NCBI GenBank assembly: GCA_900550815.1
Contig: URTW01000029.1
Span: 1-14,751 of the forward strand
DNA from: an uncultured Collinsella sp.
GTDB taxonomy: Bacteria; Actinomycetota; Coriobacteriia; Coriobacteriales; Coriobacteriaceae
DNA length: 14,751 nt
Direction of reading: 5' to 3'
Of this stretch, positions 517-14,751 are shown piece by piece. Numbering within the stretch: position 1 is the first letter of the stretch; every line of letters starts with the position of its first letter. A program made the translations under genes and the position numbers. The notes beneath the pieces were generated by a model. It was given only the letters and a program-made list of their open reading frames with translations, had not been told where the DNA came from and made no database searches.

Positions 517-804
517 TGCGTGCCGCCTCGAGTAGTGGCTCGGCATTTAGCCATTTAGTGGTACGCATTAAATGTCGGATTCCGGTTCTACGAGATTTAG
601 CTTTCAATATTATGCAGATGCGATTTATTCAACTTTGCATAATCTTGGGGGCGCATCACGCTCCAGGACATGTATATCGACTGAGGTAGCGTGTCCGCCC
701 CGCTTGCTTGCCCCGCGCCGTGGTACGATTTTTGAGTTTGAAAGTCCCGCCGTGCTCCGGCTGCCCTTGCAGCTTGTCGCGCGGCCGCACGTAAAGGAGC
801 CATC
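517..804. other. Intergenic region between divergent genes, no gene seen
   Basis: About 290 bases with no credible coding frame in either direction; the short open frames here lack ribosome binding sites and family resemblance. It holds an AT-rich inverted repeat (609-643) and a GC-rich stretch. A possible -10 for ybaB is TACGAT at 723-728, but no clear -35 accompanies it. AAAGGAG just before 805 is the ybaB ribosome binding site. I looked for the conserved SRP RNA core often found near dnaX-ybaB-recR and did not find it; dnaX is also absent upstream. Confidence 0.5.
609..643. repeat. 8-bp inverted repeat ATTATGCA / TGCATAAT
   Basis: ATTATGCA at 609-616 is repeated in inverse as TGCATAAT at 636-643. 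The right part, TTATTCAACTTTGCATAA (626-643), is itself an imperfect 18-bp palindrome with 7 of 9 arms matching. Half sites like TTATTCA and TTGCATAA resemble arginine-repressor boxes of other bacteria, but no arginine gene is in view, so the regulator is a guess. Confidence 0.35.
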
Positions 805-1125
805 ATGGCCGGTATGAACATGCAGCAGATGATGAAGCAGGCTCGCAAGATGCAGGAGCAGCTTGCCGCCGCGCAGGAGAACCTCAAGTCCCAGACCGTC
901 GACGCCTCTGCCGGCGGCGGCATGGTCAAGGTGACCGTTAACGGCGAGATGGAGCTCGTCAACCTCACCATCGATCCCGATGCCCTCGATCCCGAGGACG
1001 TCGATATGCTGCAGGACATGATCATGGCTGCCGTCAACGAGGCCGTCCGCGGCGTCAACGAGCTCGCCAACAAGCAGATGGGCGCCATCACCGGCGGCCT
1101 CAACATCCCGGGCATGCCGTTCTAA
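805..1125 (+). CDS. ybaB: YbaB/EbfC family nucleoid-associated DNA-binding protein
   Basis: 106 residues, the usual length for YbaB/EbfC. These small dimeric proteins bind DNA without strong sequence specificity and lie next to recR in most bacteria, where they are thought to act with recombinational repair. The N-terminus is a Met/Gln/Lys-rich helix ([21 protein letters not shown]) typical of the family. A central beta-sheet follows with [22 protein letters not shown] (about residues 37-58), then an acidic helix ([19 protein letters not shown]). The C-terminus is rich in Gly, Ile and Met. The start has AAAGGAG 7 nt upstream. Only 13 nt separate it from recR, so the two are probably cotranscribed. 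dnaX, a common upstream neighbour, is absent here. Confidence 0.96.
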
Positions 1126-1138
1126 GACACGCATATAT

Positions 1139-1735
1139 ATGAGTGCGAATCACAGCCTGCAAAAACTGCTCGATGAGCTGGGCCGTCTGCCGGGCATTGG
1201 TCCCAAGTCGGCCCAGCGCATCGCCTATTACCTGCTCGAGGCCGACGCCGAGGAGGCCCGCCGCCTGGCCGAGGCCATCCTGGAGGTCAAGCAGGAGGTC
1301 CACTTTTGCAGCCGTTGCTTTAACTACGCCACGGCCGACGAGTGCTCCATCTGCCAGGACCCGATGCGCGATACCACTCGCATTTGCGTGGTGGGCGAGC
1401 CGCGCGACGTCCAGGCAATCGAGCGCACGGGCAGCTACCATGGTCTGTACCATGTGCTGGGCGGCGTGATCAGCCCCATGGACAAGATTGGTCCCGAGCA
1501 GTTGCACATCCGCGAGCTGCTGGCGCGTCTGGGCCACGAGGATATCCATGAGGTCATCATCGCCACCAACCCCAATATTGAGGGCGAGACCACGGCGAGC
1601 TATCTGGCCCGTACCATCAAGCCGTTGGGCGTCGAGGTGTCGCGTCTGGCAAGCGGCCTTCCCGTGGGCGGCGACTTGGAGTATGCCGACGAGCTTACGC
1701 TTGGCCGCGCCATCGAGGCCCGTCGCGCGATTTAG
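1139..1735 (+). CDS. recR: Recombination mediator protein RecR
   Basis: 198 residues, full length for RecR, which acts with RecF/RecO to load RecA on gapped single-stranded DNA. Domains in order: helix-hairpin-helix at about residues 8-33 ([18 protein letters not shown]); a four-cysteine zinc finger with Cys57, Cys60, Cys69 and Cys72 (CSRC and CSIC); a TOPRIM domain from about 80 to 175, starting [11 protein letters not shown] and including the acidic motif [10 protein letters not shown]; and a C-terminal walker-like stretch [17 protein letters not shown] that is highly conserved in RecR. The start at 1139 has no good Shine-Dalgarno (context CACGCATATAT), so translation may depend on coupling to ybaB 13 nt upstream. 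All key residues are present and the gene looks intact. Confidence 0.97.
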
Positions 1736-1772
1736 GCGGCGAGCCTGCTCCTGCCGTATGTTTTCCTCGCGA

Positions 1773-1802
1773 CGCACGGGGTAGTCATAATTTCCCCGTG
1801 CG
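1773..1802 (+). terminator. GC-rich hairpin downstream of recR
   Basis: CGCACGGGG (1773-1781) and CCCCGTGCG (1794-1802) form a perfect 9-bp stem with a 12-nt AT-rich loop, 38 nt after the recR stop. No U-tract follows, so it could be a terminator of unusual type or a 3'-end stabilising hairpin. Confidence 0.45.
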
Positions 1803-1810
1803 ACTGTGAG

Positions 1811-1826
1811 TTTGTTGTGCAACAAA
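1811..1826. promoter_or_regulatory. Palindrome TTTGTTG-TG-CAACAAA, possible operator
   Basis: Two perfect 7-bp arms separated by TG form a short palindrome about 60 nt upstream of the -35 of the kinase-operon promoter. Its size and symmetry suit a dimeric repressor or activator, but no regulator can be named. Confidence 0.3.
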
Positions 1827-1883
1827 GATGCTTCGTATCCGCTTATCGCATGGGTGCTTCCGCTCACATCCTTAATTTGCCCA

Positions 1884-1912
1884 TTGCAACCTTTTGGGTT
1901 CGCTGATACACT
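1884..1912 (+). promoter_or_regulatory. Promoter of the kinase/FHA operon
   Basis: TTGCAA (1884-1889), a 17-nt spacer, then TGA-TACACT with the -10 at 1907-1912. This is a good sigma-70 type match, placing the transcript start near 1919. The first gene's RBS and ATG follow at about 1963 and 1975. Confidence 0.6.
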
Positions 1913-1933
1913 CAAATATGGATTTGAATGAAT

Positions 1934-1962
1934 GCGCCGCTTCTGAGCGGCGTGTTTTTGTT
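1934..1962 (+). terminator. Intrinsic-terminator-like hairpin in the operon leader (possible attenuator)
   Basis: CGCCGCT (1935-1941), loop TCTG and AGCGGCG (1946-1952) form a 7-bp GC-rich stem followed by TGTTTTTGTT. This is a textbook rho-independent terminator shape. It lies only about 15 nt downstream of the predicted transcript start and just before the GGAGGAG ribosome site, so it may be an attenuator or a 5'-stabilising hairpin; alternatively it ends read-through from recR. Confidence 0.55.
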
Positions 1963-2037
1963 GGAGGAGAACGCATGCGGCCCGGTGGCACTCAGACAAA
2001 GCGCGGCGCCGCGGTGCGCATGTGACGCCGACTGGGA

Positions 2038-2880
2038 TTGGCGCCGCGGGCGTACGCGCTGCTGTCTTGCTCGCTGGTGCTGGTCATAGCTGGCGTTTCT
2101 GCCTATGGTATGACCGTGCCGTCCATGATGCAGGCGCATGCCGCACGCGAACCGCGCGTGGGGCATGAGGTCAAAAGTGATCTGGGTACCACGACTGGAT
2201 ATGCTTGGGCAAGTGTGGTCGCGCATATTGTGTTTGGCACCGACGATGCGGACGGCGCCGCGGCCCCGGACAACGAAGTCACGCTTGCCAATGGCAAAAC
2301 CATCGTGCTCACCAACACCAAGATCATCGATCGGTTGTCCAACAATAGCGTGGCGGCAACGGTGAATAAGGTCGAGCAGCAGAAGGAGCAGGACGCCCAG
2401 CAGTCCGGAAAGCCCGGTAGCTCGGATACTTCTGGCTCCGGCTCGGATTCATCGAGTTCGGGCGGCGGCTCTGGGGCGGGTTCCTCTACCGGAGGGTCTG
2501 GAAACGGCGGCTCGACGGGCGGCAACACTGACAACGATGCAAACTCCGGTGGCCTTTCCGCTGCTGAGGAAGAGGGCGTTCACAGTTGGCTTGTGACCAA
2601 GTACAACATGCTCGACAGTTACGTTTCTCGTGCCAATGACGTGGTCTCGACCTATAACTCTACGGGAGATCCCAGGCCGTGCGACAGCCTGGTCGGGGAG
2701 ATGTTTGTCATTCGAGCCGAGTTCGGTCGTCAGACATTCTCGCCCCGGTCAAAGTGGTATCAGCAGTATGCCAATCTGTGGGGCTGTTACACCAACCTAT
2801 GTCAATGGGTCGGCCATTACGGCGATGATGACGTCGCGCTCGGTAACTTCAACAATAACGTGGCGGCGCTTGCCCTATGA
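2038..2880 (+). CDS. Membrane-anchored protein with Ser/Gly linker, first gene of kinase operon (5' end interrupted by TGA)
   Basis: 280 residues from a TTG at 2038. A hydrophobic anchor at about residues 5-24 (AYALLSCSLVLVIAGVSAYG) is followed by an extracytoplasmic region, a Ser/Gly-rich low-complexity linker (about 121-172), and a C-terminal domain (about 173-280) with aromatic residues and Cys215, Cys250 and Cys255. No known enzyme motif is seen, so the function is unrecognised. The start is odd: the best start is ATG at 1975, with GGAGGAG 5-6 nt upstream, in the same frame. That frame is stopped by TGA at 2023-2025 after 16 codons (basic residues, consistent with a cytoplasmic tail). CGA (Arg) to TGA would be one transition, so this is either a nonsense variant, a sequence error, or a 16-codon leader with reinitiation. 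The stop codon overlaps the kinase start (ATGA at 2877-2880), which implies translational coupling and a shared role. Confidence 0.7.
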   Translation: MAPRAYALLSCSLVLVIAGVSAYGMTVPSMMQAHAAREPRVGHEVKSDLGTTTGYAWASVVAHIVFGTDDADGAAAPDNEVTLANGKTIVLTNTKIIDRLSNNSVAATVNKVEQQKEQDAQQSGKPGSSDTSGSGSDSSSSGGGSGAGSSTGGSGNGGSTGGNTDNDANSGGLSAAEEEGVHSWLVTKYNMLDSYVSRANDVVSTYNSTGDPRPCDSLVGEMFVIRAEFGRQTFSPRSKWYQQYANLWGCYTNLCQWVGHYGDDDVALGNFNNNVAALAL

Positions 2881-4721
2881 TGACCGATCTTGCATCTACC
2901 ACACCACAATCGCTCGGTCGCGATCCCATGGTCGGCCTGCGCCTGGCGCGTGTCGACGGGTTTGAGCCGGCCATTGCGCTCGGTCAGGACGAACTGCCTA
3001 CCTATCTGCGTCGTTTTACGATGCTGTTTGCCGACGATGCCACCATGCGCCGTGGCGGTATCGGCCGCGTGACGCGTGCCGTCAACGCCCAAGGCGAGGC
3101 AGTGGCACTCAAGCAGCTCATCTTGCCGACGCGCGATGAGTTTGATGACGATGCCGCTCACGAGGCGCTGGTCGCCAAGTTCAAGGCGGCGTTTCGCGAG
3201 GAATACGAATGCCATCGCGCCCTTTCGGGCCTTAAGGGCTTTCCCCGCCTCTATGGCTGGGGCGAGGTCGACGGTGTGCCTGCAATTGTCATGGAATGGG
3301 TCGAGGGCGAGACACTTGCCCGCTTGCGTTCGCGACTCGCCGTGGACGATGCCGGACGCCTGTCGCCGCTTGTGGCGGCGCGTCTGGGTCGCGACCTGTT
3401 CGATCTGCTCTGCCGTATGAGCCTGGTGGGCGAGGGCTTTGTCCATCGCGATATCTCGCCCGCTAATATTATGGTGCGTACGGCGCGCCTGTCGCTTGAC
3501 CGGCAGCTTGCCGAGGGCACCTTTGACCTGTGCCTGATCGACTTTGGCTCGTCGCTGGCGCTCGAGCCTGCGTCGGCCGTGGCCGGTACCGGCGGCAAGG
3601 CTTCGTTTACGGAGCGCTATGCCACGCTGCGTCGCGCGACGGTTGCCTATGCCCCGCCCGAGATGCTCACCGACGATATTCCCGACCTGCGCGCTTTGCG
3701 TATGTCGCCGGCGATTGACGTCTATGCCGCGGCAAGCACGGTTTACGAGCTCATTGCCGGCGTCGCGCCATACGAAGCCGCGCCGAGCACTTCGGGCACC
3801 TCGGGTTCGCGCAAAAAGACGCGCGACATTGCCAGCCCCTACCGTCTCAAGATGGACACACGGCCCGACTATCCCATTGGTGCCCATGCGCCCGGTTGTG
3901 ATTTGACTCAGCTGCTTCGTCGTGAGCCCGATGTGGCGCTCGCCGCGGCCGAGCAGGCCCAGCAGCTAGGGCTTGAGCCGGATTCCGAAGAGCTACGCGA
4001 TGCGCTGGCGTTTGTCGATGCCCAGCTGTTCGACGTGGTGATGGCCTGTCTGTCCAGCCATCAAAAAGATCGTCCCGAGCCGGCGGCGGTCGAGGCGGCG
4101 CTCTCGGCGTTTTGTGACCACTATGCGCAAAATGTCGGTCGTTCGCTCCGCGGCGAGCCGCTCACGCCGTGCCCCATGGATGCGTCCGGCCGCGCGGTTC
4201 GTCGCGCGCTGATGGCCGGCGCGACGGTCGTCTGTGGCGTGGTTTGGGCTGTGGTCGTGGTTTCGGCCGCGCTGCTGGCGTCGGGCGCTCGCGTGACGGC
4301 GACTTTGGGATCGCTCGTGTGGTTTGGGTTGCTACCGGGTATTATTGCCGCACTGGCGTTGGCGCTGCCAGGCATAGCCGGCGTTGCCGCGGGGGCACTT
4401 GCGCGCGATCGGCGCTCGGGCTTCCTGCAGGGTGTGCTTGCGCTTTCCGCCTGCGAGGTTCCGGTGCTGGTTGTGGCTGCATGTAGCGTATTTTCCCAAC
4501 GCGCCGTGATGGGCGGCCTTGTTGCCGCTCTGGTTGCAACCTATACGCTTACGTGGTTTTTGCTTGCGATGGGCTTTGCCTTTGAACTTCCCGTTTCGGC
4601 ACCGCGACGCACAAAAGTCCAGATGGCGACTCCGCTTGCCGGTGGAGCCGCAGCTGCCCGTACTTTTGGCGGACCTGTCGAAGTATCGTCCGATTCTATT
4701 TCTACGACCAAGGAGGCCTAG
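2877..4721 (+). CDS. Membrane-tethered Hanks-type serine/threonine protein kinase
   Basis: 614 residues. The N-terminal kinase domain (about 45-410) carries the main eukaryotic-like kinase motifs: a Gly-rich loop at 60-65 (GGIGRV), the ATP-binding lysine in VALKQL (Lys79), a catalytic loop HRDISPAN (His190, Asp192, Asn197), the Mg-binding DFG at 222-224, APPE at 259-262 and the DVYAAA helix-F aspartate at 281. The catalytic Lys, Asp, Asn and DFG residues are all present, so it should be active. The C-terminal part (about 445-570) has four hydrophobic segments, so the kinase is anchored in the membrane. Unlike PknB-type kinases it has no extracellular PASTA sensor. It overlaps the preceding gene by ATGA, and an FHA gene begins 3 nt after its stop, so kinase and phosphothreonine reader are probably made together. 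The start could be ATG 2877 or ATG 2880. The substrate is unknown. Confidence 0.92.
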   Translation: MMTDLASTTPQSLGRDPMVGLRLARVDGFEPAIALGQDELPTYLRRFTMLFADDATMRRGGIGRVTRAVNAQGEAVALKQLILPTRDEFDDDAAHEALVAKFKAAFREEYECHRALSGLKGFPRLYGWGEVDGVPAIVMEWVEGETLARLRSRLAVDDAGRLSPLVAARLGRDLFDLLCRMSLVGEGFVHRDISPANIMVRTARLSLDRQLAEGTFDLCLIDFGSSLALEPASAVAGTGGKASFTERYATLRRATVAYAPPEMLTDDIPDLRALRMSPAIDVYAAASTVYELIAGVAPYEAAPSTSGTSGSRKKTRDIASPYRLKMDTRPDYPIGAHAPGCDLTQLLRREPDVALAAAEQAQQLGLEPDSEELRDALAFVDAQLFDVVMACLSSHQKDRPEPAAVEAALSAFCDHYAQNVGRSLRGEPLTPCPMDASGRAVRRALMAGATVVCGVVWAVVVVSAALLASGARVTATLGSLVWFGLLPGIIAALALALPGIAGVAAGALARDRRSGFLQGVLALSACEVPVLVVAACSVFSQRAVMGGLVAALVATYTLTWFLLAMGFAFELPVSAPRRTKVQMATPLAGGAAAARTFGGPVEVSSDSISTTKEA

Positions 4722-4724
4722 GTC

Positions 4725-5663
4725 ATGGCATCTCAAGTTGAGCTCACCCCATGCGGGGCCATGTTTGACATCTTTAAGCGCGCGGCGCATCTGAGCCATA
4801 TCGAGCTGTGCGGCTTGGTGCTTTCGTCCCGTCCGCTCGCCGACGGCCGCAGCCCGCAGAGCCGGGCCGCCGATCGCTCTTGGGTTTCCCGCTTTATCGT
4901 TCGCGCGCCGGTCGGCACGCTTCAGCAGCGCTACTTTGCCGAATACGGTACCTCGGCTGCGCGCATTATGTCGCAACTGGCCCTGCGCCAGCGAAATCCC
5001 ATGGACTCCACGGCTGTGATCAATATGGTGTGCGGTCCTGCAGGTGAACCGATGGTACGCGCGCTCGAAGAGTGCCACCAGGACACGAATCTCTATCGCA
5101 ACGCGCTCGATCGCCTGTCCCAGGCGGCGGAACTCATGCCCGCCGAGCGCGCCGAGGCCGTGCTGGTGCTGTTTGTCGCCGTCGGTTGTTCGGCGGATGT
5201 GCGGTCCTCGGTGAACTATGCCATCGACTACGCGCACGCGACCTGTGGCGGAGGCACCTCCACGCCGCGTTCGCTTGGCATGTCGATGACCGCGGGCGAA
5301 CGCGAACCCGCCCCGGCGCACCCCTTGGGCTTGCTGCGCGTACAAAACAGTTTTGTCGTGAGCGCCCCGCGCTGGATTCAGCCGAGTGAGCAGGGTGTTG
5401 AGATTGGCGCGCTGGCCACTGGTGAGGGCGATATTACCGACGTCGGCGACGATGTCTCGGCCCGCCATGCCCATATCTGGTGCGATGCTCAAAATATCTG
5501 GCACGTCGAGGACTTGTCGTCCACCAACGGAACCGTGGTGGTAAACGGGGCCACGCGCGTCTGCATTCAGGTCGAGCCCGGCCGTTCCGCCCAACTCAAT
5601 CCCGGCGACGAGCTCAAGCTCGGCGAATCCACTACCTACGCCATCCTCTTCGGTGCCCTCTAG
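4725..5663 (+). CDS. FHA-domain protein, probable phosphothreonine reader for the adjacent kinase
   Basis: 312 residues; ATG 4725 lies behind AAGGAGG and 3 nt after the kinase stop. Residues 1-170 form a helical domain I do not recognise, with two cysteines. A Gly/Thr-rich and Pro-containing linker follows (about 172-200). The C-terminus (about 203-312) is a forkhead-associated domain: EIGALATGEGDITDVGDDVSARHAHIWCD with the Ser-Ala-Arg-His signature at 245-248, then EDLSSTNGTVVVNG (SSTNGT at 265-270) and a closing LNPGDELKLGESTTYAILFG. FHA domains bind phosphothreonine peptides, so this protein is likely a substrate or effector of the kinase encoded just upstream. Its last ~430 bases are repeated, at high identity, at 11972-12411, beyond the accessory island. 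Confidence 0.92.
   Translation: MASQVELTPCGAMFDIFKRAAHLSHIELCGLVLSSRPLADGRSPQSRAADRSWVSRFIVRAPVGTLQQRYFAEYGTSAARIMSQLALRQRNPMDSTAVINMVCGPAGEPMVRALEECHQDTNLYRNALDRLSQAAELMPAERAEAVLVLFVAVGCSADVRSSVNYAIDYAHATCGGGTSTPRSLGMSMTAGEREPAPAHPLGLLRVQNSFVVSAPRWIQPSEQGVEIGALATGEGDITDVGDDVSARHAHIWCDAQNIWHVEDLSSTNGTVVVNGATRVCIQVEPGRSAQLNPGDELKLGESTTYAILFGAL
5232..5663 (+). repeat. Direct repeat, copy 1: 3' part of the FHA gene
   Basis: This stretch matches 11972-12411 in the same orientation, with near-identical encoded FHA domains and one extra Asp codon in copy 2. By eye the last 150 bases agree at about 90 percent. The two copies bracket the accessory island, so recombination between them could delete about 6.7 kb. 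Confidence 0.85.
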
Positions 5664-5695
5664 CCGGCAGATAGGGACGTTTCTTTTCTGCCGGC
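5663..5695. repeat. REP-like hairpin after the first FHA gene
   Basis: GCCGGCAGA (5663-5671) and TCTGCCGGC (5687-5695) form a perfect 9-bp stem around a 15-nt loop starting TAGGGACG. It starts inside the FHA stop codon and may also act as a 3'-end structure. A different palindrome carrying the same ATAGGGAC string follows the second FHA copy (12430-12492), hence the REP-like label. Confidence 0.55.
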
Positions 5696-5778
5696 ACTTG
5701 GGGACACTCCTCGGCGCGCCAGAGCCAGTCGCCCGGGGATGGAGGGGCCATTTTGGCCCTTGGCGGTCAGTCGGGGCG

Positions 5779-6613
5779 AAACTAGAAGATCTTTCCGATT
5801 CGCGGCTGTTCATGCTTGTAGAGCATCTAAAACAATAGGATGTTATTCTGGAATATGCCGGGTGCGTGAACTTGCCTGTCTTAGCCTTAATAAGGTATAG
5901 GGGAGTTTGGCTCAGGGGTTCCGTCTTGTTCTTCAGCGCAGTATTGTGGGACAGATTTGCTGAGATTGGCGCCTTACACCGCAGAGCGCACGGAAGGCTC
6001 TCGATTTGTGTTCTGGCCCCAGAATACAGGGCCTGATACTTACCAACTGTGGCATGGATGTAACATCTGTAGAAATCAACCCTTTTGTTGTCGACCTTTG
6101 TAAGAAGAACACTGCCATCAACTCTTTGGATGACGAAACTAGGGTGCTTGAGGGGAGCCTTTACTCCCCTCTGAGAGATGACTCATGTTTTTCGCTTGTC
6201 GTTGTGAATCCTCCGTTACTGCCGATTCCGGATGAGATTCCTTATCCCTTCGTTTGAGATGGAGGACAATCGGGTCTGGATAAAACACTTCGTATTCTTA
6301 AGGGTGGCGATACGCATTTAGAGAAAAACGGTAAATACTGCTAATAGGGGTGACGACGATGGTGCAGGGGCGACCCGCGATGCTCTCATCAATACGTCGG
6401 ATACTTGGGAAATCAGGTCTAGATGCATGTATGATGATGCTGTGTGGCTATTCAATTAATCCGCGTTCCGAATGGGTGCAGGGTATAGCTGCGACATCGT
6501 ATGCTTTTGACCCGGCGCGATACTCAGATATTTCTGAGGCGGTTGACGAAGTTTATACGCACTATGCCGCGCAAGGCGTTTCGGAAGTTTGCACATCTAC
6601 GTTACGGGCTTAG
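5779..6613 (+). pseudogene. Decayed class I SAM-dependent methyltransferase (HemK/PrmC-like NPP motif)
   Basis: The remains of one methyltransferase gene can be followed through three frames. Part 1 (from 5779): a helical N-terminus DLSDSRLFMLVEHLKQ, stopped by TAG at 5836-5838, continuing DVILEYAGCVNLPVLALIRY. Part 2: LAPYTAERTEG (about 5960-5995), a frameshift, then the SAM-binding motif I ALDLCSGPRIQGLIL (about 5997-6041), VEINPF, and the substrate motif NPPLLPIP (6207-6230). A TGA at 6255-6257 interrupts what should read PFV-G-DGGQ. A further one-base shift near 6335 leads into the last part, LLIGVTTMVQG to the stop at 6613. With two nonsense codons and at least two frameshifts, no enzyme can be made. 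The NPP motif suggests methylation of an amide or amine nitrogen; the original target is unknown, though peptide modification is possible given the RiPP context. Confidence 0.75.
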
Positions 6614-6737
6614 GTTTCTTCAAGCGAGCAGGCCGGTTGCGTTATTTCGAGCGATTTTTCTAGTCTAGGCGACAAAAGGCAAAGGATTTGGTGGGTGTAA
6701 AACGAGGTCGTTTGCGGGCGGACGCTCCAATCTATTG

Positions 6738-6783
6738 TGGCAATCGGGCGGTTGAAAAAGATATTTCAATCGCCCGATTGCCA
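6738..6783. repeat. 20-bp inverted repeat with 6-nt loop
   Basis: The arms at 6738-6757 and 6764-6783 pair over 20 bp with a single G:T exception, which is a G-U wobble in RNA. No T-tract follows in either direction, so it is not a plain terminator. It lies between the dead methyltransferase and the ABC exporter, about 145 nt before the latter, and could be an operator, an RNA processing structure or a miniature mobile-element remnant. Confidence 0.7.
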
Positions 6784-6798
6784 GATTCGTCGGAGGAG

Positions 6799-6907
6799 AT
6801 GTCCGATTCCGACTCTCTTGTAGGAAGAGCTTGAGACCGTATTGGCCCAAGGCAATCTTAAAGCAGTCTCATTGGCAAATCTTCGCTCCTGTTGTGTTGA
6901 GGTGTAA
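6799..6907 (+). other. Possible frameshifted small Cys-containing peptide gene upstream of the ABC exporter
   Basis: After GGAGGAG an ATG at 6799 opens MSDSDSLV and then hits a stop. If one base is removed near 6821-6823, the frame continues EELETVLAQGNLKAV SLANLRSCCVEV and stops at 6907, about 35 residues in all. An acidic leader and a short C-terminus with CC would suit a RiPP precursor placed just before an exporter. The spacing between GGAGG and ATG is too short for an ideal start, and the frameshift is assumed, so this is a weak call. Confidence 0.2.
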
Positions 6908-6928
6908 GGTATCAGTGATTGATGTTTT

Positions 6929-8581
6929 GTGGCGGGTAGATTGGGGCCTTCCTTGATTCGATGCGTTCTCTCGAGGTTCATCAGAGCAAAAGGGGCTTTC
7001 GTCTTCATTGCTATCACGGTGATTGGAACCGCTCTCTCCTATGCCATGCCATACGTGAACGGGAAATTCTTAGATTTTCTTCTCGGTAACCGCAGCGAAA
7101 GAGACGCCGTACTCTTCGCGCTCCTGGTTGCGTCAATAGGAGTTTTCTCCACCCTCTTTACTTATTTTGCAGGAACACTTTCCATTCGCATAACCACGAG
7201 ACTTTCCTTTGATCTTCTCAGGGAGGCCGTCTTGCGTTTTGAAAGAGACGATTACTTGGTGAGTCGGACCATCGATCCAGCCTATACAACGCAACGGATT
7301 ATTTCCGACTCCAGCGTGGTCTCATCCTTCGTTTTGGCGAATTTTATCAGTGCGCCGCTGTCTATTGTAGCCATTCCCATCGTATTGCTTATCATATGGT
7401 CAATTGATTCAACTCTCGCGGTGTTTTCCATCATTCTCCTCATCGTGTATTTCTGTGTAATTACTGGGTTGAGGAAACTTTTGTATAGGGTCACGTATGA
7501 GAAGAAAGAGGCGGACAGCGCCTTTTACGCCGCAATTGCATCGCAGCTTAATCAGATTCTCAACATTCAACTGACATCTTCGTACGGCAAGAGCGAACAA
7601 GCGCTCGACGCTGGGTTTAAGAGCTATTTTCCCAAAGTTTTGCGCTCCGGAAAGCTATCATATTCTCTGACATCGCTCGATGGTCTTTTCGCAGCGTTGT
7701 TTCAAGCGGTGATACTTGTTGTTTCCGGAGTACGAATCATTAACGGAACTATGTCAATAGGCGAGTACACTATCATCGGTACATACTTCGCGGTTCTCTT
7801 TAAGACTTTGAAAAGTATGATGTCATTGTTCAAATCCTATCAAGATGCCAAAGCATCATGGGATAGGACGGCTATCGCGACGAGAGAAAAGGAGAGATCG
7901 GGGTGGAATCGGACCGATTTAGCTAAACTCGATGAAATAAATGACATTTCGGTATCTGATTTGGAATTCTCGGTTGCCCTTCCAGACGGATCTGTCCGAG
8001 GGGTCCTCGGCGGGTTTTCTTTCAAGTTTTCCGGTCCTGGTACATATTGCATAGTTGGGGAAAACGGAAGAGGCAAGACGTCACTTCTTTACTTGATGCT
8101 CGGGCTATACTCATCGAAAGGCAAAGTAAAATACAACGGTGTGCCAATCGAAGAATGCGACTTGGATTACATACGTGCGAGAGAGATATCGTGCTGCCCG
8201 CAGTCGTGCTTCGCGCCGGACGAAACGGTGAAAGAGCTGTTAGAGTATTTCGACACGCCCTTTTCTTCCTATCACCGGGGTGTAGATGGCCTACTTTCGC
8301 TGGAAAACAGCGTGAAGGAGTTGCTCGGGAAACGTTGCTCCGCGCTTTCGGGCGGTGAGCTGCGCCGAGTGTACTTATGGTCGGCGATTTCACGCAAGTC
8401 GTCAGTTTTGGTACTCGACGAGCCCACGACTGGGTTAGACGCTGTAAGCCGCGCCGAGCTTGCGGCCTATGTTAAGCGCAACAAGCAAAGCCAGCTGATC
8501 ATCGTTGTCTCTCACGATGACGAGATGGTCGGCGCGGTAGAAGGGGTAGTGGATTTAGACAGCATGTACCAGGGTAAATGA
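6929..8581 (+). CDS. ABC-type exporter, fused membrane and ATPase domains
   Basis: 550 residues with exporter layout. The N-terminal transmembrane domain (about residues 12-300) has around five or six hydrophobic helices. The C-terminal nucleotide-binding domain (about 340-550) has Walker A GENGRGKT (377-384), Q-loop Gln425 (CCPQSCF), signature LSGGE (473-477), Walker B VLVLDE (493-498), D-loop GLD and H-loop His529. All catalytic elements are present, so it should hydrolyse ATP. It lacks a C39 peptidase domain, so it would not cut leader peptides itself. The start is uncertain: GTG 6929 follows an in-frame TGA at 6920-6922 without a clear Shine-Dalgarno, and TTG 6941 or 6953 are alternatives. 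Codon use is more AT-rich than the flanks. It converges on the RiPP operon and is the only nearby candidate for product export, which is inference. An ATGA overlap at its end opens a 12-codon frame, perhaps the stub of a lost second gene. Confidence 0.88.
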   Translation: MAGRLGPSLIRCVLSRFIRAKGAFVFIAITVIGTALSYAMPYVNGKFLDFLLGNRSERDAVLFALLVASIGVFSTLFTYFAGTLSIRITTRLSFDLLREAVLRFERDDYLVSRTIDPAYTTQRIISDSSVVSSFVLANFISAPLSIVAIPIVLLIIWSIDSTLAVFSIILLIVYFCVITGLRKLLYRVTYEKKEADSAFYAAIASQLNQILNIQLTSSYGKSEQALDAGFKSYFPKVLRSGKLSYSLTSLDGLFAALFQAVILVVSGVRIINGTMSIGEYTIIGTYFAVLFKTLKSMMSLFKSYQDAKASWDRTAIATREKERSGWNRTDLAKLDEINDISVSDLEFSVALPDGSVRGVLGGFSFKFSGPGTYCIVGENGRGKTSLLYLMLGLYSSKGKVKYNGVPIEECDLDYIRAREISCCPQSCFAPDETVKELLEYFDTPFSSYHRGVDGLLSLENSVKELLGKRCSALSGGELRRVYLWSAISRKSSVLVLDEPTTGLDAVSRAELAAYVKRNKQSQLIIVVSHDDEMVGAVEGVVDLDSMYQGK

Positions 8582-8952
8582 TGACAAGTGTAGTGCTACC
8601 CAACTGGCAGAGATAACAAAAAGGCGATGCAGATGCACGTAGCATTCAGGCGGTTCGGACTCGGTGCCTTCACGCCATCGCAACGCTTTCAGATATAGTT
8701 CTCGTTCTCTTACTAAAGGAAACTTTAGTCTACGTCATCTTGTCGAGACAGAGGTGAAGCGAAGTGTTGTCGCGACGTATCTTATTCCAGGTGGCTCAGT
8801 ATCAGCGTGAGAATCGCACCAAAGTGTACTTACGATTCTCGTGTCCCACGGACAACATGAGCTGAGCATTGAGGTTCCACCCTTTGCTGCAACTACACGG
8901 GGTTGGACGGCAATGAATATGCCGGGCCGCATACCACGCGCAGCGGGGGTCC
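8582..8952. other. Degenerate stretch downstream of the ABC gene, no intact gene
   Basis: The region begins with a tiny frame starting at 8578 (ATGATG, overlapping the ABC stop) that ends after 12 codons. A plus-strand frame through about 8700-8950 reads protein-like (for example VETEVKRSVVATYLIPGG and TILVSHGQHELSIEVPPF) but contains an internal TGA near 8810 and has no family I recognise. It is best described as debris of one or two lost genes. Confidence 0.4.
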
Positions 8953-9172
8953 ATGTCCCAGTATGTTGCCTACAGCAGCCTCGATGTCCACGCACACATC
9001 ATCTCTGCCTTCGCGTTCAATCCATTTGCCGGAGAGTGCGAGGGTTGCCAGGCCGTAGAATTCGAGCCGAACAAATGAAATGCGGTATCAGCGCATAGGA
9101 TTAAACTGACGATTGCTTTGCACTGAGAATACGCTTGAAAAGCCGCTATGGGTGGCGGCCCAGGTTAAATAG
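8953..9172 (+). mobile_element. Transposase remnant, IS110-like N-terminus and a detached C-terminal piece
   Basis: ATG 8953 opens 41 codons reading YVAYSSLDVHAHIIS and stopping at 9078. This matches the start of IS110-family transposases, where a Y-x-G/S-x-DVH segment contains the first catalytic Asp of the DEDD domain. A second short frame from 9110 to the TAG at 9172 ends in EKPLWVAAQVK, which looks like a protein C-terminus, though I cannot tie it firmly to the same family. Nearly all of a ~400-residue transposase is missing, so this is a dead, internally deleted copy. Confidence 0.5.
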
Positions 9173-9173
9173 A

Positions 9174-9216
9174 GAAGCCCGTCCGATCACTTTCATGTGG
9201 CGAACGGTCGGGCTTC
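9174..9216 (-). terminator. Strong hairpin ending the RiPP operon (possibly bidirectional)
   Basis: GAAGCCCG-T-CCG (9174-9185) pairs with CGG-T-CGGGCTTC (9205-9216): 11 of 12 bases match around a 19-nt loop. On the minus strand it follows the last small gene by about 65 nt and is trailed by TCTATTT. On the plus strand it is trailed by TTATT, so it may also stop transcripts from the ABC side. Confidence 0.65.
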
Positions 9217-9281
9217 TTATTCCACTTGCCAATGCTCGGCTCATATTGGAAGAAAGCTACGCTAATGTTTGCGTGACACTC

Positions 9282-9389
9282 CTATTTTCTCCGAAGAAAG
9301 AGTCGGATAATGAAGAATAGAATTAAAAAAGGTGCCAGATATAACGCAAGTATAAAGGCTAATCCAACGAGACCTTGCAATAATGGCAT
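9282..9389 (-). CDS. 35-aa hydrophobic membrane peptide at the end of the RiPP operon
   Basis: ATG 9389 is preceded by GGGAGGAG with 2-5 nt spacing to the start, one of the strongest ribosome sites in the region. The 35-residue product is one long hydrophobic helix (about residues 4-29) ending in the basic tail RLFLRRK, i.e. a single-pass membrane peptide with its C-terminus probably cytoplasmic. It lies 78 nt after the second precursor and before the hairpin at 9174-9216, so it appears to be the last gene of the operon. Small hydrophobic peptides beside peptide-product clusters are sometimes immunity or export helpers, but no family is recognised and the role is inference. It is too short for usual gene-calling cut-offs. 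Confidence 0.65.
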   Translation of the reverse strand: MPLLQGLVGLAFILALYLAPFLILFFIIRLFLRRK

Positions 9390-9467
9390 AACTCCTCCCA
9401 GACACGAGATTTTGGTATTTGTTCCCATCTTATTCTGAATTGGACCAAATAGTTCCTAGCCACAAAA

Positions 9468-9647
9468 CTACTCGTCAACTGGATCGCACCAATCTGCTGG
9501 CAAAACACAGCTTGATTCTTTATCGACATAGCACCAATCCGCAACAGGGCACTCGGCGATGTCGTAAAAATTGCATATATCAACTCCAAGACAACAAGGC
9601 TCAACGGGAGGATGTTCATTTGAACCAACAGGATGGATATGCTTCAT
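9468..9647 (-). CDS. Cys-rich RiPP precursor peptide B (59 aa), CX3D repeats
   Basis: ATG 9647 follows GTGAGGAG with a 5-6 nt spacer. The 59-residue product starts MKHIHPVGS and has seven cysteines at 18, 19, 25, 33, 39, 47 and 54. Three consecutive Cys-X3-Asp units are visible: CLGVD (19-23), CNFYD (25-29) and CPVAD (33-37). The adjacent precursor A shares the KHIHP start, the LG-x-DIC block, a YD after the next Cys, and the later Cys order, so the two are clear paralogues. In ranthipeptides such as freyrasin, a radical SAM enzyme links Cys sulfur to the Asp three residues on in CX3D motifs; the maturase encoded upstream is of that general class. Expected product: a multiply thioether-bridged peptide. 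No obvious leader cleavage site (such as GG) is seen. Recognition as a precursor rests on context and composition, not on a known family. Confidence 0.82.
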   Translation of the reverse strand: MKHIHPVGSNEHPPVEPCCLGVDICNFYDIAECPVADWCYVDKESSCVLPADWCDPVDE

Positions 9648-9677
9648 AACAGCTCCTCACCTTAATCCAATTAGAGA

Positions 9678-9881
9678 CTACGTTTGATCAATGCCACAGT
9701 GATCTACAACGCAGATGCTGCCGCCATCCATGTCATAGTCGCAGTAATCGTATGCACCACAGCCATCTGCTTTATCATAAACAGTACAGATGTCAGTAAT
9801 GCCCAAGAGGCAGTCAAAAGACATCGGCTTCACGCCTGCCTCGTCGCCACTTCCTGGATTAATCGGATGAATATGCTTCAC
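9678..9881 (-). CDS. Cys-rich RiPP precursor peptide A (67 aa), CX3D repeats
   Basis: GTG 9881 is chosen because AGGGAGG lies 5-6 nt upstream and because it aligns exactly with the ATG of precursor B; a longer frame upstream exists but lacks this support. The 67-residue product begins (M)KHIHPINPGSG, has a Gly/Asp/Glu leader-like stretch to about residue 20, then six cysteines at 24, 32, 41, 47, 57 and 62 in an acidic, Tyr/Asp-rich core. Cys-X3-Asp units are CTVYD (32-36) and CGAYD (41-45); other Cys have Asp at two or five residues. The predicted core pI is low. It is separated from precursor B by about 30 nt, so they are cotranscribed, downstream of the radical SAM maturase. Six-Cys peptides beside SPASM enzymes define the SCIFF/ranthipeptide classes, but this sequence does not look like canonical SCIFF, which has a different Cys pattern. 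Confidence 0.85.
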   Translation of the reverse strand: MKHIHPINPGSGDEAGVKPMSFDCLLGITDICTVYDKADGCGAYDYCDYDMDGGSICVVDHCGIDQT

Positions 9882-9939
9882 GACTACCTCCCTTTGAGTG
9901 CAGAAAAACCTCAATATTGTGTATAACAAACCAAGATGT

Positions 9940-10023
9940 CTAGTTCACCATATTTCTAGAATGGTTTCGGCGAACGTAGCAATAAGCTTTGCAGACGGTA
10001 ATCAGAAGAACGAACACCTCCAC
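9940..10023 (-). CDS. Possible 27-aa hydrophobic peptide between maturase and precursor A
   Basis: Reading on from the maturase stop in the same frame, a GTG at 10023 (or 10017) opens VEVFVLLITVCKAYCYVRR followed by a short polar tail, ending at TAG 9942-9940. It resembles the 35-aa peptide at 9282-9389 in design: one hydrophobic helix, then Arg-Arg. No good ribosome site precedes either GTG, so expression is doubtful and it could instead be leftover sequence. Its placement inside the operon is the main argument for it. Confidence 0.3.
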   Translation of the reverse strand: MEVFVLLITVCKAYCYVRRNHSRNMVN

Positions 10024-10050
10024 AATGGTGACAGCAATGCGCTGAACCGC

Positions 10051-11409
10051 TTATTCCGATACAGTAGCTTCTCGTTGATTTTTCTCCTGCGAAGATGAGT
10101 GGCGGGAAATAAGGTCAAAAGCCATCTCGTAGCACATTTTTCTATATTCACATGATGCAGGGTGTAGACTCTTGGGCAAGTAGCCGTGCTCGTCTGCAGC
10201 CTCCCAGCTACAGCCCCCACCACAGAAAGACCGAGCCCAACAGTCCGTACAGTCAATTCTTTTTTCGACACCCTGACTCCAGTTTTCAATATACCTAGTT
10301 TCGTCAATTCCGGTGACGATGTTGCCCATTTTGAATCGCATCATCCCGACAAACCTGTGACAGGGGTATACGTCCCCTTCGGGAGTCACGGAAATAAAAC
10401 GCCTGCCAGCCCCGCATCCGACAAAGGCGATCCTGTTGCTCATAATCAAATCAACTGCAGTTTTCAATGTTCTAAACAAGGGCTTTTCCCCTTGATCAAT
10501 CTGTTTGAGATATTGATCCGCCAAATCTATTAGGCCCGCCCTGATTTTGTTTAATGAGTGTTCGTCGAGTTTGATATTCTCATCGAATGAGCTCACGGGC
10601 GAGAAGTAAATCCTTCTGAAGCCCATCTCTTTAAACTGAAGATAGTCTTCAACAAGGTTACAGTTATTATTTGTTAAGGTCGCTCTTGCGCCGAAGGGGA
10701 ACGACTCGGAAAAACGACGAACGTTTTTGTCGATATCGGAGAAAGAGCCGCCTCCCGTCTTGTACGGGCGCGATGCATCGTGCTTGCATCCTGTACCATC
10801 GAGACTAATCAGAACAGAAAACCCGTGCTCCTTGAAAGAATTCACAGCAGTGTCATTCAAAAGCGTTCCGTTGGTCGTAATAGAATAGGTAAAGTTTCTA
10901 TTGGGGTATATTCTTTTTGAATAGTCGACCGTTTTCCATATCAGCGGCTCGTTAATCATGGGTTCCCCACCAAAAAAGACGATCGCAAGCGTTTCGTTTT
11001 CCGATGAACTTGCGACGAGGTAGTCGACCGCCTTGAAGGCTATCTCGTCTGTCATCAGCAGAGGAGACGTTCCATAATCTCCTTTACCGGCAAAACAGTA
11101 ACTACAACCAAGGTTGCATGCATGTGAAACGTGGAGTTCGATGGATCTAAGTTTTCGAGGCGTGTCTTTTGTTAAGAAAGTCCGCTCAGACAATCGTTGA
11201 TACTCATCAATGTCGTCTTCAAGTTCTGCTATGGTCGTTTGGTCGTAGCCTTTCGCAGCAAGTGACTTTGTTAGCAACTTCGAGTTGACCGTTCTTCCCG
11301 ATGCTTCAAATATGCGAAGCGCATCTTCTGATGCTTGGTCAACCTGAAAGCAATTGCGAGTGACCTCATCGAAGCAGTAACGACGATCACTTACTGAGAA
11401 AAAATGCAT
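10051..11409 (-). CDS. Radical SAM/SPASM peptide maturase, SCIFF/ranthipeptide thioether-type
   Basis: 452 residues from ATG 11409, preferred over a GTG ten codons upstream (11439) because GAGG lies 5 nt before it. The N-terminal ~85 residues (MHFFSVSDRRYCFDEVTRNCFQ...) look like the small precursor-recognition region of such maturases. The radical SAM core starts at about 88: Cys98-x3-Cys102-x2-Cys105 (CNLGCSYCF) binds the 4Fe-4S cluster that cleaves SAM; FFGGEP (145-150) contacts SAM; TTNGTLL and SLDGTG are further barrel motifs. The C-terminal SPASM region has Cys332 (VGCGAGRRFISVTPEGD), Cys350, Cys387, Cys390, Cys396, Cys400, Cys420 and Cys426 for auxiliary clusters. The blocks HVSHACNLGCSYCFAGKG and CGAG..PEGDVYPCHRFVG strongly recall the thioether cross-link-forming SCIFF maturases. 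It probably installs Cys-to-Asp (or Thr) sulfur-carbon bridges on precursors A and B, encoded just downstream. Chemistry is inferred from family and substrate motif. Confidence 0.93.
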   Translation of the reverse strand: MHFFSVSDRRYCFDEVTRNCFQVDQASEDALRIFEASGRTVNSKLLTKSLAAKGYDQTTIAELEDDIDEYQRLSERTFLTKDTPRKLRSIELHVSHACNLGCSYCFAGKGDYGTSPLLMTDEIAFKAVDYLVASSSENETLAIVFFGGEPMINEPLIWKTVDYSKRIYPNRNFTYSITTNGTLLNDTAVNSFKEHGFSVLISLDGTGCKHDASRPYKTGGGSFSDIDKNVRRFSESFPFGARATLTNNNCNLVEDYLQFKEMGFRRIYFSPVSSFDENIKLDEHSLNKIRAGLIDLADQYLKQIDQGEKPLFRTLKTAVDLIMSNRIAFVGCGAGRRFISVTPEGDVYPCHRFVGMMRFKMGNIVTGIDETRYIENWSQGVEKRIDCTDCWARSFCGGGCSWEAADEHGYLPKSLHPASCEYRKMCYEMAFDLISRHSSSQEKNQREATVSE

Positions 11410-11925
11410 ACGTTCCTCAATTTCATGCTGGACTGGCACTAACCTTGTTTATTGTTGCGCAGCTATAAAAAACCACCAGCGGGGATTCGGTGTGCGGCCC
11501 AATCGGACTCCCAAAAGGTTCTATTTGAGACTGGCAAGCTTTGTGTTGTTGGCACTTCGACAGCGCTCTTTATTCCAACATGGAGCCTCGCAGTTTGAGT
11601 CGACTTGCCTCTGGAAGGTCCGATCTTAACTTGATTTAGGATGAAAACAGATTACAGGCGCGCTCCTCTAGAAAGAAAGGAAACCAATCGCCGCCTTTCA
11701 CCAGGAAAGTTTTTATAGCCCACCTCGAGCAAAATGAAAGATGCGAGAGCGATTGGGGAACAACGCGAATCTCCCATTTTGGGTGGGAGCGAGCCTTCAG
11801 CCACCGGCGAACGACTCGCCCTGGTCAGAATCTGGAAGTGGTGCCGGGCCGCTTGGGCCTCCCCGGTGACTTCGTGGGGCTTGCCTGCCTGACGTCGAGG
11901 AGTACATCCGCAAGATTCGTTCCCT
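11410..11925. other. Gene-poor stretch upstream of the maturase, with hairpin and gene debris
   Basis: About 515 bases without a convincing gene. It should contain the maturase promoter on the minus strand, but I see no clear -35/-10 pair. A small hairpin, CTCCCA (11771-11776) with TGGGAG (11784-11789), is present. A minus-strand frame (11942-11652, 96 codons) lacks a ribosome site and overlaps the truncated FHA copy. On the plus strand a frame ending at TAG 11951-11953 reads ACLPDVEEYIRKIRSLCRLL, which looks like the C-terminus of a lost gene next to the island edge. Confidence 0.4.
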
Positions 11926-12411
11926 ATGCCGTTTGCTCTCACGCCCGCCTTAGTTCCAAGTCGGGCGAGCCGCCGCGCTCATGCGACCCGTGGCGGCGAC
12001 ACGTCGACGCCGCGCTCGCTGAGCACATCTTCGGTCGCGGGCGAGCACGAAGTCGCGCCGGCGCATCCGCTGGGACTGCTGTGCGTGCAAAACGGCTACG
12101 TGGTGAGCGTCCCGCGCTGGATTCAGCCGAGTGAGGAAGGCGTTGAGATCGGCGCGCTGGCAACGGGGGAGGGCGGCATCACCGACGACGTCGGCGACGA
12201 CGTCTCGGCCCGCCATGCCCATATCTGGTGCGACGAGTCTGGCGCATGGTTTGTCGAGGACCTGTCGTCCACTAACGGCACCGTGGTGGTAAACGGGGCC
12301 ACGAGTGTGTGTATTCAAGTAGAGCCCGGCCGCTCCGCCCAGCTCAACCCCGGCGACGAGCTCAAACTCGGCGAATCCACCACCTACGCCATTCTCTTCG
12401 GTGCCCTCTAA
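11926..12411 (+). pseudogene. 5'-truncated second copy of the FHA-domain gene
   Basis: The frame ending at TAA 12411 encodes a complete FHA domain almost identical to that of the protein at 4725-5663: EIGALATGEGGITDDVGDDVSARHAHIWCD, EDLSSTNGTVVVNG and LNPGDELKLG. Homology starts only at about 11972 (HAT-GG-TSTPRS), so the ~170-residue N-terminal helical domain is missing. The open frame runs upstream to ATG 11926 through unrelated residues, without a ribosome site. Nothing suggests a promoter close by. It could still yield a stand-alone FHA domain of about 161 residues, but a truncated remnant at the island boundary is more likely. Confidence 0.75.
11972..12411 (+). repeat. Direct repeat, copy 2: 3' part of the FHA gene
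   Basis: Second member of the pair with 5232-5663. The copies differ by scattered, mostly silent changes, so they are an old duplication and not a recent copy. They bracket the island. Confidence 0.85.
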
Positions 12412-12429
12412 CTCATCCCCCCAAATAAC

Positions 12430-12492
12430 TTGCGGTGAAATAGGGACTGATTAAGGCCGCGACCGGCAAACACACTCCCTATTTCACCGCAA
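12430..12492. repeat. Perfect 17-bp inverted repeat (REP/REPIN-like) after the second FHA copy
   Basis: The arm TTGCGGTGAAATAGGGA (12430-12446) is repeated in inverse as TCCCTATTTCACCGCAA (12476-12492), enclosing 29 nt that contain a small GCCG/CGGC hairpin. ATAGGGAC in the arm also occurs in the loop of the hairpin at 5663-5695. Such paired intergenic palindromes are typical of REP elements mobilised by REP-associated tyrosine transposases; no such transposase is in this window. Confidence 0.7.
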
Positions 12493-12593
12493 TTGTTGTG
12501 GGGTTCCAGGGGCCTGTGCCCGTCGGTGCCGGGCGCACAATAGTCACCCAAGGTAAACCTTTACCGCCCGCCTATATTTGTCGAAATTACACT

Positions 12594-12610
12594 TGACGGC
12601 GGGGTACAAT
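12594..12610 (+). promoter_or_regulatory. Promoter core for nifJ
   Basis: TGACGGCGGGGTACAAT carries a -10 TACAAT at 12605-12610 and matches 16 of 17 bases of the promoter core at 516-500. A TTGAC sits directly in front (12593-12597), too close to act as the -35 of this -10, so the true -35 is unclear. Transcripts starting near 12617 would have a leader of about 275 nt. Confidence 0.45.
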
Positions 12611-12891
12611 AAACCCGCATGCGGATTTCCGTTGCGGGCGCTTCCCATCGCCGGGGCGTGCCCGGGAGCATCCGGCATGCGGCCTTTGCGGCGCTCGGTC
12701 ATGTGCAAGACGGGCGGTCGGGTCTGTGGGGCGCATCAGCTGGCCCTCGTCTCGGCATGTCTTCTCTCCACGCCACGTACCTGCTGCTGAGCCTGCCTGC
12801 CAGATGATTGGAAGCAACAGCGTAAATCCCATCACGCCAACATCCCGGCGATCGCCGGGGCCTGTATACCTATATGAGAGGAGAGGGGTAT
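12611..12891 (+). other. Long GC-rich nifJ leader with a 16-bp palindrome
   Basis: No supported gene lies in these ~280 bases; an ATG frame at 12619 has no ribosome site. Just before the nifJ ribosome site is the perfect palindrome CCCGGCGATCGCCGGG (12844-12859), which as RNA would form an 8-bp arm structure and as DNA could be an operator. I do not recognise a riboswitch class. Confidence 0.4.
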
Positions 12892-14196
<1,305 letters not shown>

Positions 14197-14217
<21 letters not shown>

Positions 14218-14751
14218 CACAATGTCATAACCGGCGTCAAAAACATGGCAGGTATCAAGGCAGACACCGATTTTATCGTTTCGCTCCACACGGTCGATAA
14301 TCATACGCAGTTCTTCAAAGGTTCTGCCGACCTCCGTGCCTTTGCCCGCCATTGTTTCAAGCAATACCGTGGTTGTCATATCATCGAACATTGCAGTATT
14401 CAATGCTGTGCCTATTTGCTCAACCGCAGCTTTAACGCCCTGTCCCGTGTGACTGCCGGGGTGAAAGTTGTAAAGATTATTCGGGTGATATTCCATTCGT
14501 TTCAAATCATCCGTAAGCGTGTTCAGAGCAAATTCACGGGTTTCGGGTTTTGCCGAACAGAGGTTCATTGTGTATGGTGCATGGGCAAGAATTTTTGCAA
14601 AATTATTTTCCGTCATAAGTTTTATAAGTGCATTGACATCTTCGATATCAATTTTTCTTGCAGATCCACCACGAGGGTTGCGAGTAAAAAATTGAAATGT
14701 GTTTGCTCCGATTGAAAGTGCATCTCTGCCGATTGCGTAAAAACCTTTTGA
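14197..14751 (-). CDS. nfo: Deoxyribonuclease IV (AP endonuclease), both ends missing
   Basis: The minus-strand frame is open from the right window edge to the junction, 185 residues. It begins [19 protein letters not shown] (roughly residue 10 of the family) and includes FFTRNPRGG. Zinc-site residues of the Nfo TIM barrel are visible: His in [10 protein letters not shown], His in [11 protein letters not shown], Glu in [13 protein letters not shown], and Asp and His in [13 protein letters not shown]. The remaining ligands (equivalents of E. coli His216, Asp229, His231 and Glu261) would lie beyond the junction and are absent. The enzyme cuts DNA at abasic sites in base excision repair. Codons are AT-rich (AAA, GAA, AAT, ATT), like a Firmicute gene and unlike everything else here. 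The frame continues past 14197 only as antisense of nifJ. A start at 14616 would be internal to the domain. Confidence 0.9.

Follow-up and report, generated by a model that had tools for sequence, protein, structure and literature searches.

The 14,751-nucleotide stretch of DNA analysed here (called the window throughout; contig URTW01000029.1 of an uncultured Collinsella sp.) carries, on the minus strand of positions 9282-11409 and in the order of transcription, a radical S-adenosylmethionine (SAM)/SPASM maturase gene, two small Cys-rich peptides that we call precursors A and B, a hydrophobic mini-open reading frame (mini-ORF) and then a hairpin. We consider it quite likely that this locus is a biosynthetic cassette for a two-peptide Cys-Asp ranthipeptide-like product, probably one that was acquired horizontally. 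The observed basis of this reading is the gene order, the homology of the parts, the repetition of a module within the peptides, the similarity of their leaders, the predicted fold of the enzyme, the co-occurrence of the genes, and a two-peptide plan seen again in a second phylum. That the locus is a conserved subfamily of a known class is real, and so is the recurrence of its plan in that distant phylum. The minus-strand maturase, the two peptides, the mini-ORF and the strong hairpin had all been named in the original prediction, made from the sequence alone, and all were confirmed. They are laid out as follows:

10051-11406, minus strand: maturase, 451 residues, with an N-terminal RRE-like domain, a CX3CX2C cluster motif and SPASM cysteines
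9678-9881, minus strand: precursor A, 67 residues, GTG start at 9881, leader MKHIHPIN, three C-x(2-5)-D-x-C-x(2,3)-D modules
9468-9647, minus strand: precursor B, 59 residues, ATG start at 9647, paralogue of A, three modules
9282-9389, minus strand: hydrophobic mini-ORF, 35 residues, strong ribosome site
9165-9225, minus strand: hairpin, likely the operon end, -27.2 kcal/mol, z-score -5.84

The maturase frame spans 10051-11439, and the ATG at 11406 is its likely start since the copy in one genome (G028) aligns only to query residues 12-462. The best solved structural relative of the enzyme is CteB, and the likeness of fold includes the N-terminal RRE-like domain, which bears out the earlier description of a ranthipeptide-type maturase. 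The locus has two marks of the ranthipeptide class: a radical SAM/SPASM maturase with an N-terminal RRE-like domain of the CteB kind and, beside it, a Cys-rich precursor that bears a leader and conserved candidate acceptors. As a family name, however, the term "SCIFF-like" used earlier had to be given up. The maturase scored 266.4 bits with the SCIFF model TIGR03974 (cut-off 425, positive controls 628-804), 271.7 bits with the freyrasin PapB model NF047865 (cut-off 340, Lysinibacillus control 432.2) and 241.3 bits with the QhpD-type model TIGR03906 (cut-off 453, positive control 719.5). Neither A nor B reached any family at E<=1 in the comparison with the SCIFF precursor model TIGR03973, where a true SCIFF scored 87.6, and neither matched the freyrasin precursor model NF037957 (positive control 30.3, cut-off 30) or contains six CX3D motifs as freyrasin does; no Pfam or NCBIfam family lay above its cut-off for either peptide. 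Membership in the SCIFF, freyrasin and quinohemoprotein amine dehydrogenase (QHNDH) families was rejected by these curated cut-offs. In a phylogenetic tree, the Collinsella-type enzyme forms a clade separate from SCIFF, and PapB is a single long branch of unsure placement, for which only Lysinibacillus itself was found in 250 genomes of the Lysinibacillus class; plasmid-borne relatives, no more than 43% identical among the 15 listed, were not used. The family-scanned leaves of that tree were L039, L041 and L042 (SCIFF), L078 (PapB) and L090 (QhpD type); the remaining SCIFF labels come from an adjoining SCIFF peptide, and the remaining QhpD-type labels from a single clade with L090. A side observation concerns nine maturase clusters of 468 residues (P0011-P0019) that align to only 77-83% of the query; the two that were aligned, P0012 and P0016, have a frame change near the C-terminus, as null alleles or sequencing errors would.

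Alignments of the two precursors put their identity at 36-41%. A few bases 5' of the GTG of A lies GGGAGG, and the homologue of A in Collinsella intestinalis has an ATG at this position; GGAG lies upstream of the ATG of B. Each peptide has six Cys-Asp pairs, with spacings of X5, X3, X3, X2, X2 and X2 in A and X3, X3, X3, X2, X4 and X3 in B, the Asp of the module being taken as the partner; Asp immediately adjoins two of the Cys residues, C47 of A and C54 of B. The peptides had been described as CX3D precursors, and this is true of two of the six sites in A and four of the six in B, but the motif proper is the longer C-x(2-5)-D-x-C-x(2,3)-D module. All seven cores tested contain it three times, a number that was reached in none of the 20,000 shuffled versions made of every core, a result that speaks for regularity and is not an independent prediction, the module having been defined on the same sequences that were shuffled. 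An independent check came from the Candidatus Eisenbacteria peptides described below, which were found later. In an alignment of A and B with relatives from C. intestinalis, UBA7524 and the databases, the invariant residues (A numbering) were M1, H3, D30, C32, D36, C41, D45, C47, D50, D60, C62 and D65; where B has "CC", Tyr replaces the first Cys in P0133, in P0135 and in the copy of C. intestinalis. The MKH-type leader of A and B resembles that of SCIFF peptides, with 40 of 40 agreeing by a loose pattern and 16 of 40 by a strict one. At the 46,607 Met positions of 75 loci the strict motif was matched 35 times, and QhpC-like subunits account for 18 of its other 19 matches when judged by eye, or 17 when judged by pattern.

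In C. intestinalis as well, the A and B pair adjoins a maturase 66% identical to that of the window, and the homologue of A there is 61% identical and annotated merely as "hypothetical protein". Because the pair recurs beside this maturase, the pairing of A with B exceeds chance, and the earlier claim of two related, diverged substrates beside one enzyme, conserved next to a homologous maturase, holds good. Saturation of dS precluded dN/dS, and the window was compared with C. intestinalis by the raw proportions of nonsynonymous and synonymous differences (pN and pS): pN/pS are 0.237/0.885 for A and 0.240/0.786 for B, comparable to those of the maturase (0.216/0.879), and 0.357/0.846 for the ABC exporter described below. 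Among 65 genomes of the family, A was found in nine, and in eight after the match in G051 was dropped (E 0.049, one internal stop); all eight also have B. Across 396 Coriobacteriia, the precursor profile was found in nine genomes and the maturase in nine, with eight in common. In one genome (G016) the contig stops within the maturase; another (G195) has only a 33% identical enzyme and no such peptide in its 3.1 kb. Two distinct precursors conserved as a pair are the mark of a two-component ribosomally synthesized and post-translationally modified peptide (RiPP), and such a pair is what was found, UBA7524 having a single precursor.

These data bear on the strongest of the other explanations, namely a SCIFF-type signal, in which each peptide would carry one or a few links and serve cell-cell signalling with no fixed pair. 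Fold and leader do lie near those of SCIFF systems, and SCIFF is placed under quorum sensing in a table of a review (PMC8326336; papers are cited here by PMC number for the accessible parts of their text). Yet the SCIFF peptide model went unmatched and the maturase fell under the SCIFF cut-off; an Asp follows every conserved Cys here, whereas the SCIFF cores listed have no Asp between the Cys residues; and the pair is patchy, in only eight of 65 family genomes. We therefore regard this explanation as improbable and keep to the two-peptide Cys-Asp cassette.

The plan is not peculiar to Collinsella but is nearly phylum-wide in Candidatus Eisenbacteria. Two loci of this phylum among the relatives bore the same kind of peptide, and a precursor search of 20 Candidatus Eisenbacteria genomes was positive in 19 at E<=0.001. 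A profile built without any Eisenbacteria sequence found 37 ORFs at E<=1 (25 of them at E<0.01) in 19 loci, all of them precursors, and in 75 control loci only two matches, with E of 0.79 and 0.99. Among 46 genomes whose maturases are of the SCIFF, PapB, QhpD or another such type, the wider profile was positive at E<=0.01 in one, through a match (G442, E 0.003) that lies inside a 437-residue frame and was counted as a false positive; it was positive in none of 297 Acidobacteriota. The maturase gene adjoins the peptides in 18 of the 19 loci, being split over two frames in L198; the nineteenth is a 3.5-kb contig on which no maturase was seen. One peptide, alpha, directly precedes the other, beta, in 16 of the 19, and four of these 16 have a third, beta-like copy. 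The exceptions are L198, which ends after alpha; L203, where the second peptide has an in-frame TGA at the expected first Cys before the contig ends; and L204, with alpha only and another match on a different contig of the same genome. The TGA of L203 (4558-4560), beyond which the frame is open, could encode selenocysteine, mark a broken copy or be an error. Exactly two modules, as against three in Collinsella, occur in each of the 36 Eisenbacteria peptides counted (40 matches less four partial rows). These two-peptide loci make one maturase with two paralogous substrates a recurrent plan.

The Eisenbacteria enzymes have a feature of their own. The 11 maturases aligned (L052, L188, L190, L191, L193-L196, L199, L200 and L204) carry an additional N-terminal domain, whose model has a pLDDT of 80.5 and matches polyprenyl diphosphate synthases (best E 1.9e-4, TM-score 0.55/0.63); all 50 structural matches listed are of the prenyl-synthase or terpenoid-synthase type. 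The domain also bears Asp-rich motifs such as QDxxLD and ADDLxDL. After the precursors comes a gene for an FG-GAP/PQQ-type beta-propeller in all six loci scanned:

L193, 6746-8182: beta-propeller gene
L191, 5421-6950: beta-propeller gene
L188, 5419-6918: beta-propeller gene
L205, 454-1935: beta-propeller gene
L197, 2814-4328: beta-propeller gene
L190, 3404-5257: beta-propeller gene

The next gene is an ABC ATPase in three of three loci scanned, and an ABC2 permease was found in the one locus scanned for it. There is a faint likeness here to QhpC, a subunit of quinohemoprotein amine dehydrogenase that has a beta-propeller partner. By analogy, A and B could be cross-linked subunits built into the structure of a larger enzyme, and not free products. 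The propeller gene in the six Eisenbacteria loci and the MKHLK leader common to QhpC-like subunits agree with this idea; but the Collinsella island showed neither a beta-propeller gene nor one for a cytochrome, and the maturase lies far under the QhpD-type cut-off (241 vs 453), so we rate subunits as slightly less probable again than a SCIFF-type signal, and the two-peptide cassette remains the preferred account.

Downstream of the precursors, the mini-ORF was originally listed as 9282-9428 (48 residues), and the ribosome site GGGAGGAG instead indicates the ATG at 9389. It had been counted as part of the operon, but copies (97-100% identical) occur in seven genomes, none was found at the C. 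intestinalis locus, and no Pfam or NCBIfam family lay above its cut-off. Eight other matches (E 0.036-0.275) were dropped, four within frames of about 900 residues and four in frames of 36-91 residues. With near-identical copies only, it was rejected as a pathway gene and is accessory at most. The hairpin likely ends the operon. Its fold proved as strong as had been claimed, none of 200 shuffles being equally stable, but its U-run is short, a simple terminator scan did not list it, and it falls just outside 9282-11409, the span first given for the operon. A promoter scan gave three sites against 3.7 in shuffles, and an Rfam scan gave no match.

The cassette sits on a low-GC island whose main features are:

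5770-12541, no strand assigned: low-GC island, present at the site in some genomes and absent in others
11926-12411, plus strand: second copy of the 3' part of an FHA gene, at the right end of the island, a direct repeat with 5231-5662
6929-8581, plus strand: ABC exporter, convergent with the pathway genes, with Pfam ABC_membrane and ABC_tran domains

The GC content of 5770-11925 is 0.480, with 0.454 in the pathway genes (9165-11406), and the flanks (751-5663 and 11926-14216) stand at 0.625; this difference in base composition favours acquisition; the island was probably acquired horizontally. It is bounded by the FHA direct repeats (5231-5662 and 11976-12410), which are 78-98% identical and both carry an FHA domain. 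The island-free genomes have a left-type FHA tail (5231-5662) in some cases and a right-type tail in others. In one genome (G006), window positions 4265-5769 are joined directly to 12542-14216, with about 6.8 kb absent. Of 43 genomes searched, the 22 of C. aerofaciens type (11 or more matches) were examined at the island site: seven have the island (both flanks on one contig in four, one flank visible in three), in 14 the site is empty, and G038 is unsettled. The nearest genome compared is 100% identical over 9000-11700, and the same locus is found in a contig named Collinsella aerofaciens, a common human gut actinobacterium; the best maturase segment of the C. intestinalis DSM 13280 locus is 67% identical. 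An exporter homologue occupies the same convergent position in C. intestinalis, with 264 of 543 aligned residues identical; the exporter of the window has no match to a C39 peptidase in Pfam. Upstream of it, in the part without a listed ORF of 100 residues (5770-6928), lies a 20-nucleotide inverted repeat (6738-6783; 95% complementary, 6-nucleotide loop). A plasmid origin found no support, the 25 plasmid records all being remote (<60% identity), and neither did a phage origin (32 phage-collection records at <60% identity; best of 75 IMG/VR loci 32%). The ten phage matches listed are unannotated human-faecal "Bacteriophage sp." records; MT837264 and similar records hold SPASM-type relatives at 30-34% identity and are possibly bacterial DNA. 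Beyond the island, all 16 whole-genome loci aligned there cease to match the window at 14216 or 14217. Positions 14217-14751 hold a truncated pyruvate:ferredoxin oxidoreductase gene, with a frame on the opposite strand that we take to be endonuclease IV-like, and the junction at 14216/14217 is possibly a misjoined contig or a rearrangement.

If the cassette works as we propose, the N-terminal RRE-like domain of the maturase would bind A and B by their MKH[IM]-type leaders, both peptides being substrates of the one enzyme. The radical SAM centre would abstract a side-chain hydrogen from Asp, and an auxiliary cluster would present the partner Cys, such that each C-x(2-5)-D pair could become a sulfur-to-carbon thioether. 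The pairing of Cys with Asp suggests up to six links per peptide, and the six pairs in three modules would then cost about 12 Da per fully modified peptide. The ABC gene at 6929-8581 probably exports the products, given that its position is conserved in two Collinsella species. Joint action of the two products, in antagonism or in signalling, is suggested by the sharing of one enzyme between two substrates and by their conserved pairing and order. This chemistry, export and joint action we infer from the genes.

Several observations weigh against this reading. In UBA7524 a single precursor lies upstream of a 39% identical maturase (genes for an ABC ATPase and for a protease of the CPBP (Rce1-like) kind lie downstream). 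Divergence is faster in the exporter than in the other genes (pN 0.357), which leaves the exporter linked to the pathway by position only, and neither a leader peptidase nor an immunity gene was found. The maturase is below the NCBIfam cut-off in all 25 families listed, and the tree leaves its placement relative to the SCIFF, PapB, QhpD-type and Eisenbacteria maturases unsettled; taken together, these two facts leave room for a different acceptor atom or residue, and for some convergence behind the likeness of the precursors between the phyla. Spacing is a further point. PapB joins Cys to the beta-carbon of Asp and, on a minimal substrate, tolerated CXnD with n = 0-6 (PMC9413430, accessible part), but a review reports that it mostly failed on CX2D variants of PapA (PMC8172795, likewise in part), and CX2D makes up three of the six sites in A.

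A different linkage altogether is put forward if the products are sactipeptides, with sulfur-to-alpha-carbon links as in thuricin CD, a two-component sactibiotic and a two-peptide precedent made by radical SAM enzymes (PMC12093266, accessible part). The nearest relatives of the Collinsella enzyme, CteB, PapB and the QhpD type, join the Cys sulfur to a non-alpha carbon, according to what is accessible of PMC8326336; as in freyrasin, Asp residues are the conserved candidates for the acceptor; and thuricin CD requires two maturases where one is present here, all of which makes this explanation quite unlikely. That A and B are small disulfide or metal-binding proteins in an accidental neighbourhood, and not enzyme substrates, is very unlikely. 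Their richness in Cys and Asp and a weak, sub-threshold SapA match of A in Pfam (E 0.0061) speak for it, but in two phyla such peptides closely accompany the maturase, with a shared leader and a conserved order.

Beyond the two-peptide cassette itself, we offer one larger idea tentatively, thinking it somewhat doubtful: the Coriobacteriia and Candidatus Eisenbacteria loci may together form an unrecognised two-component ranthipeptide family, in which one maturase would make C-x-D-x-C-x-D double-ring modules in two (sometimes three) jointly acting paralogues, and the fused prenyl-synthase fold of the Eisenbacteria might mean that the peptides or a partner lipid are prenylated. In the literature searched, which leaves most subscription papers and all bioRxiv preprints outside its scope, no ranthipeptide from Collinsella is described, and none is named in the accessible parts of PMC10904984 and PMC11324757. 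The same search, with subscription papers and preprints largely outside it, found no paper on radical SAM enzymes in Eisenbacteria and no description of a two-peptide Cys-Asp system, an absence that is weak evidence. One enzyme with two natural substrates of varied Cys-Asp spacing offers a test bed for how a maturase chooses its pairs, a subject on which the published accounts of spacing tolerance disagree (PMC9413430 vs PMC8172795, both from their accessible parts). One refactoring platform in E. coli is reported to have yielded modified peptide from none of the ranthipeptide clusters that it tried (PMC9576775, accessible part). Such peptides occur in 19 of 20 Eisenbacteria genomes, and the prenyl-synthase-like domain fused to the maturases aligned from there adds a second chemistry to test.

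Among known systems, SCIFF (CteA/CteB) shares with the Collinsella locus the enzyme fold with its N-terminal domain, the MKH-type leader and six conserved Cys. It differs in that the Collinsella acceptor candidates are Asp residues in modules, outside both TIGR03973 and TIGR03974, and in having one precursor per locus against two: the SCIFF pattern was found in 40 of the 77 loci scanned, exactly once in each, and the contrast drawn in the original prediction is thus upheld. Freyrasin (PapA/PapB) is alike in its six Cys-Asp pairs, and NF047865 is by score the closest NCBIfam enzyme model, but the Collinsella spacing runs from X2 to X5 instead of a uniform X3, and the leader is unlike that of the Lysinibacillus freyrasin-like peptide. 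QhpC/QhpD resembles the locus in the MKHLK leader and in Cys-to-Asp/Glu links made by a related enzyme (PMC8326336, as far as accessible), while the Collinsella enzyme lies outside the maturase model TIGR03906. Thuricin CD (TrnA/TrnB, TrnC/TrnD) likewise has two distinct radical SAM-processed peptides at one locus, but is set apart through its two complexed maturases and alpha-carbon links (PMC12093266, in the part available). The two-component lanthipeptides of the cytolysin type, in which a single LanM serves two substrates (same source and part), present the same economy of one enzyme for two peptides; their enzyme class and chemistry are unrelated, and the likeness is one of analogy only.

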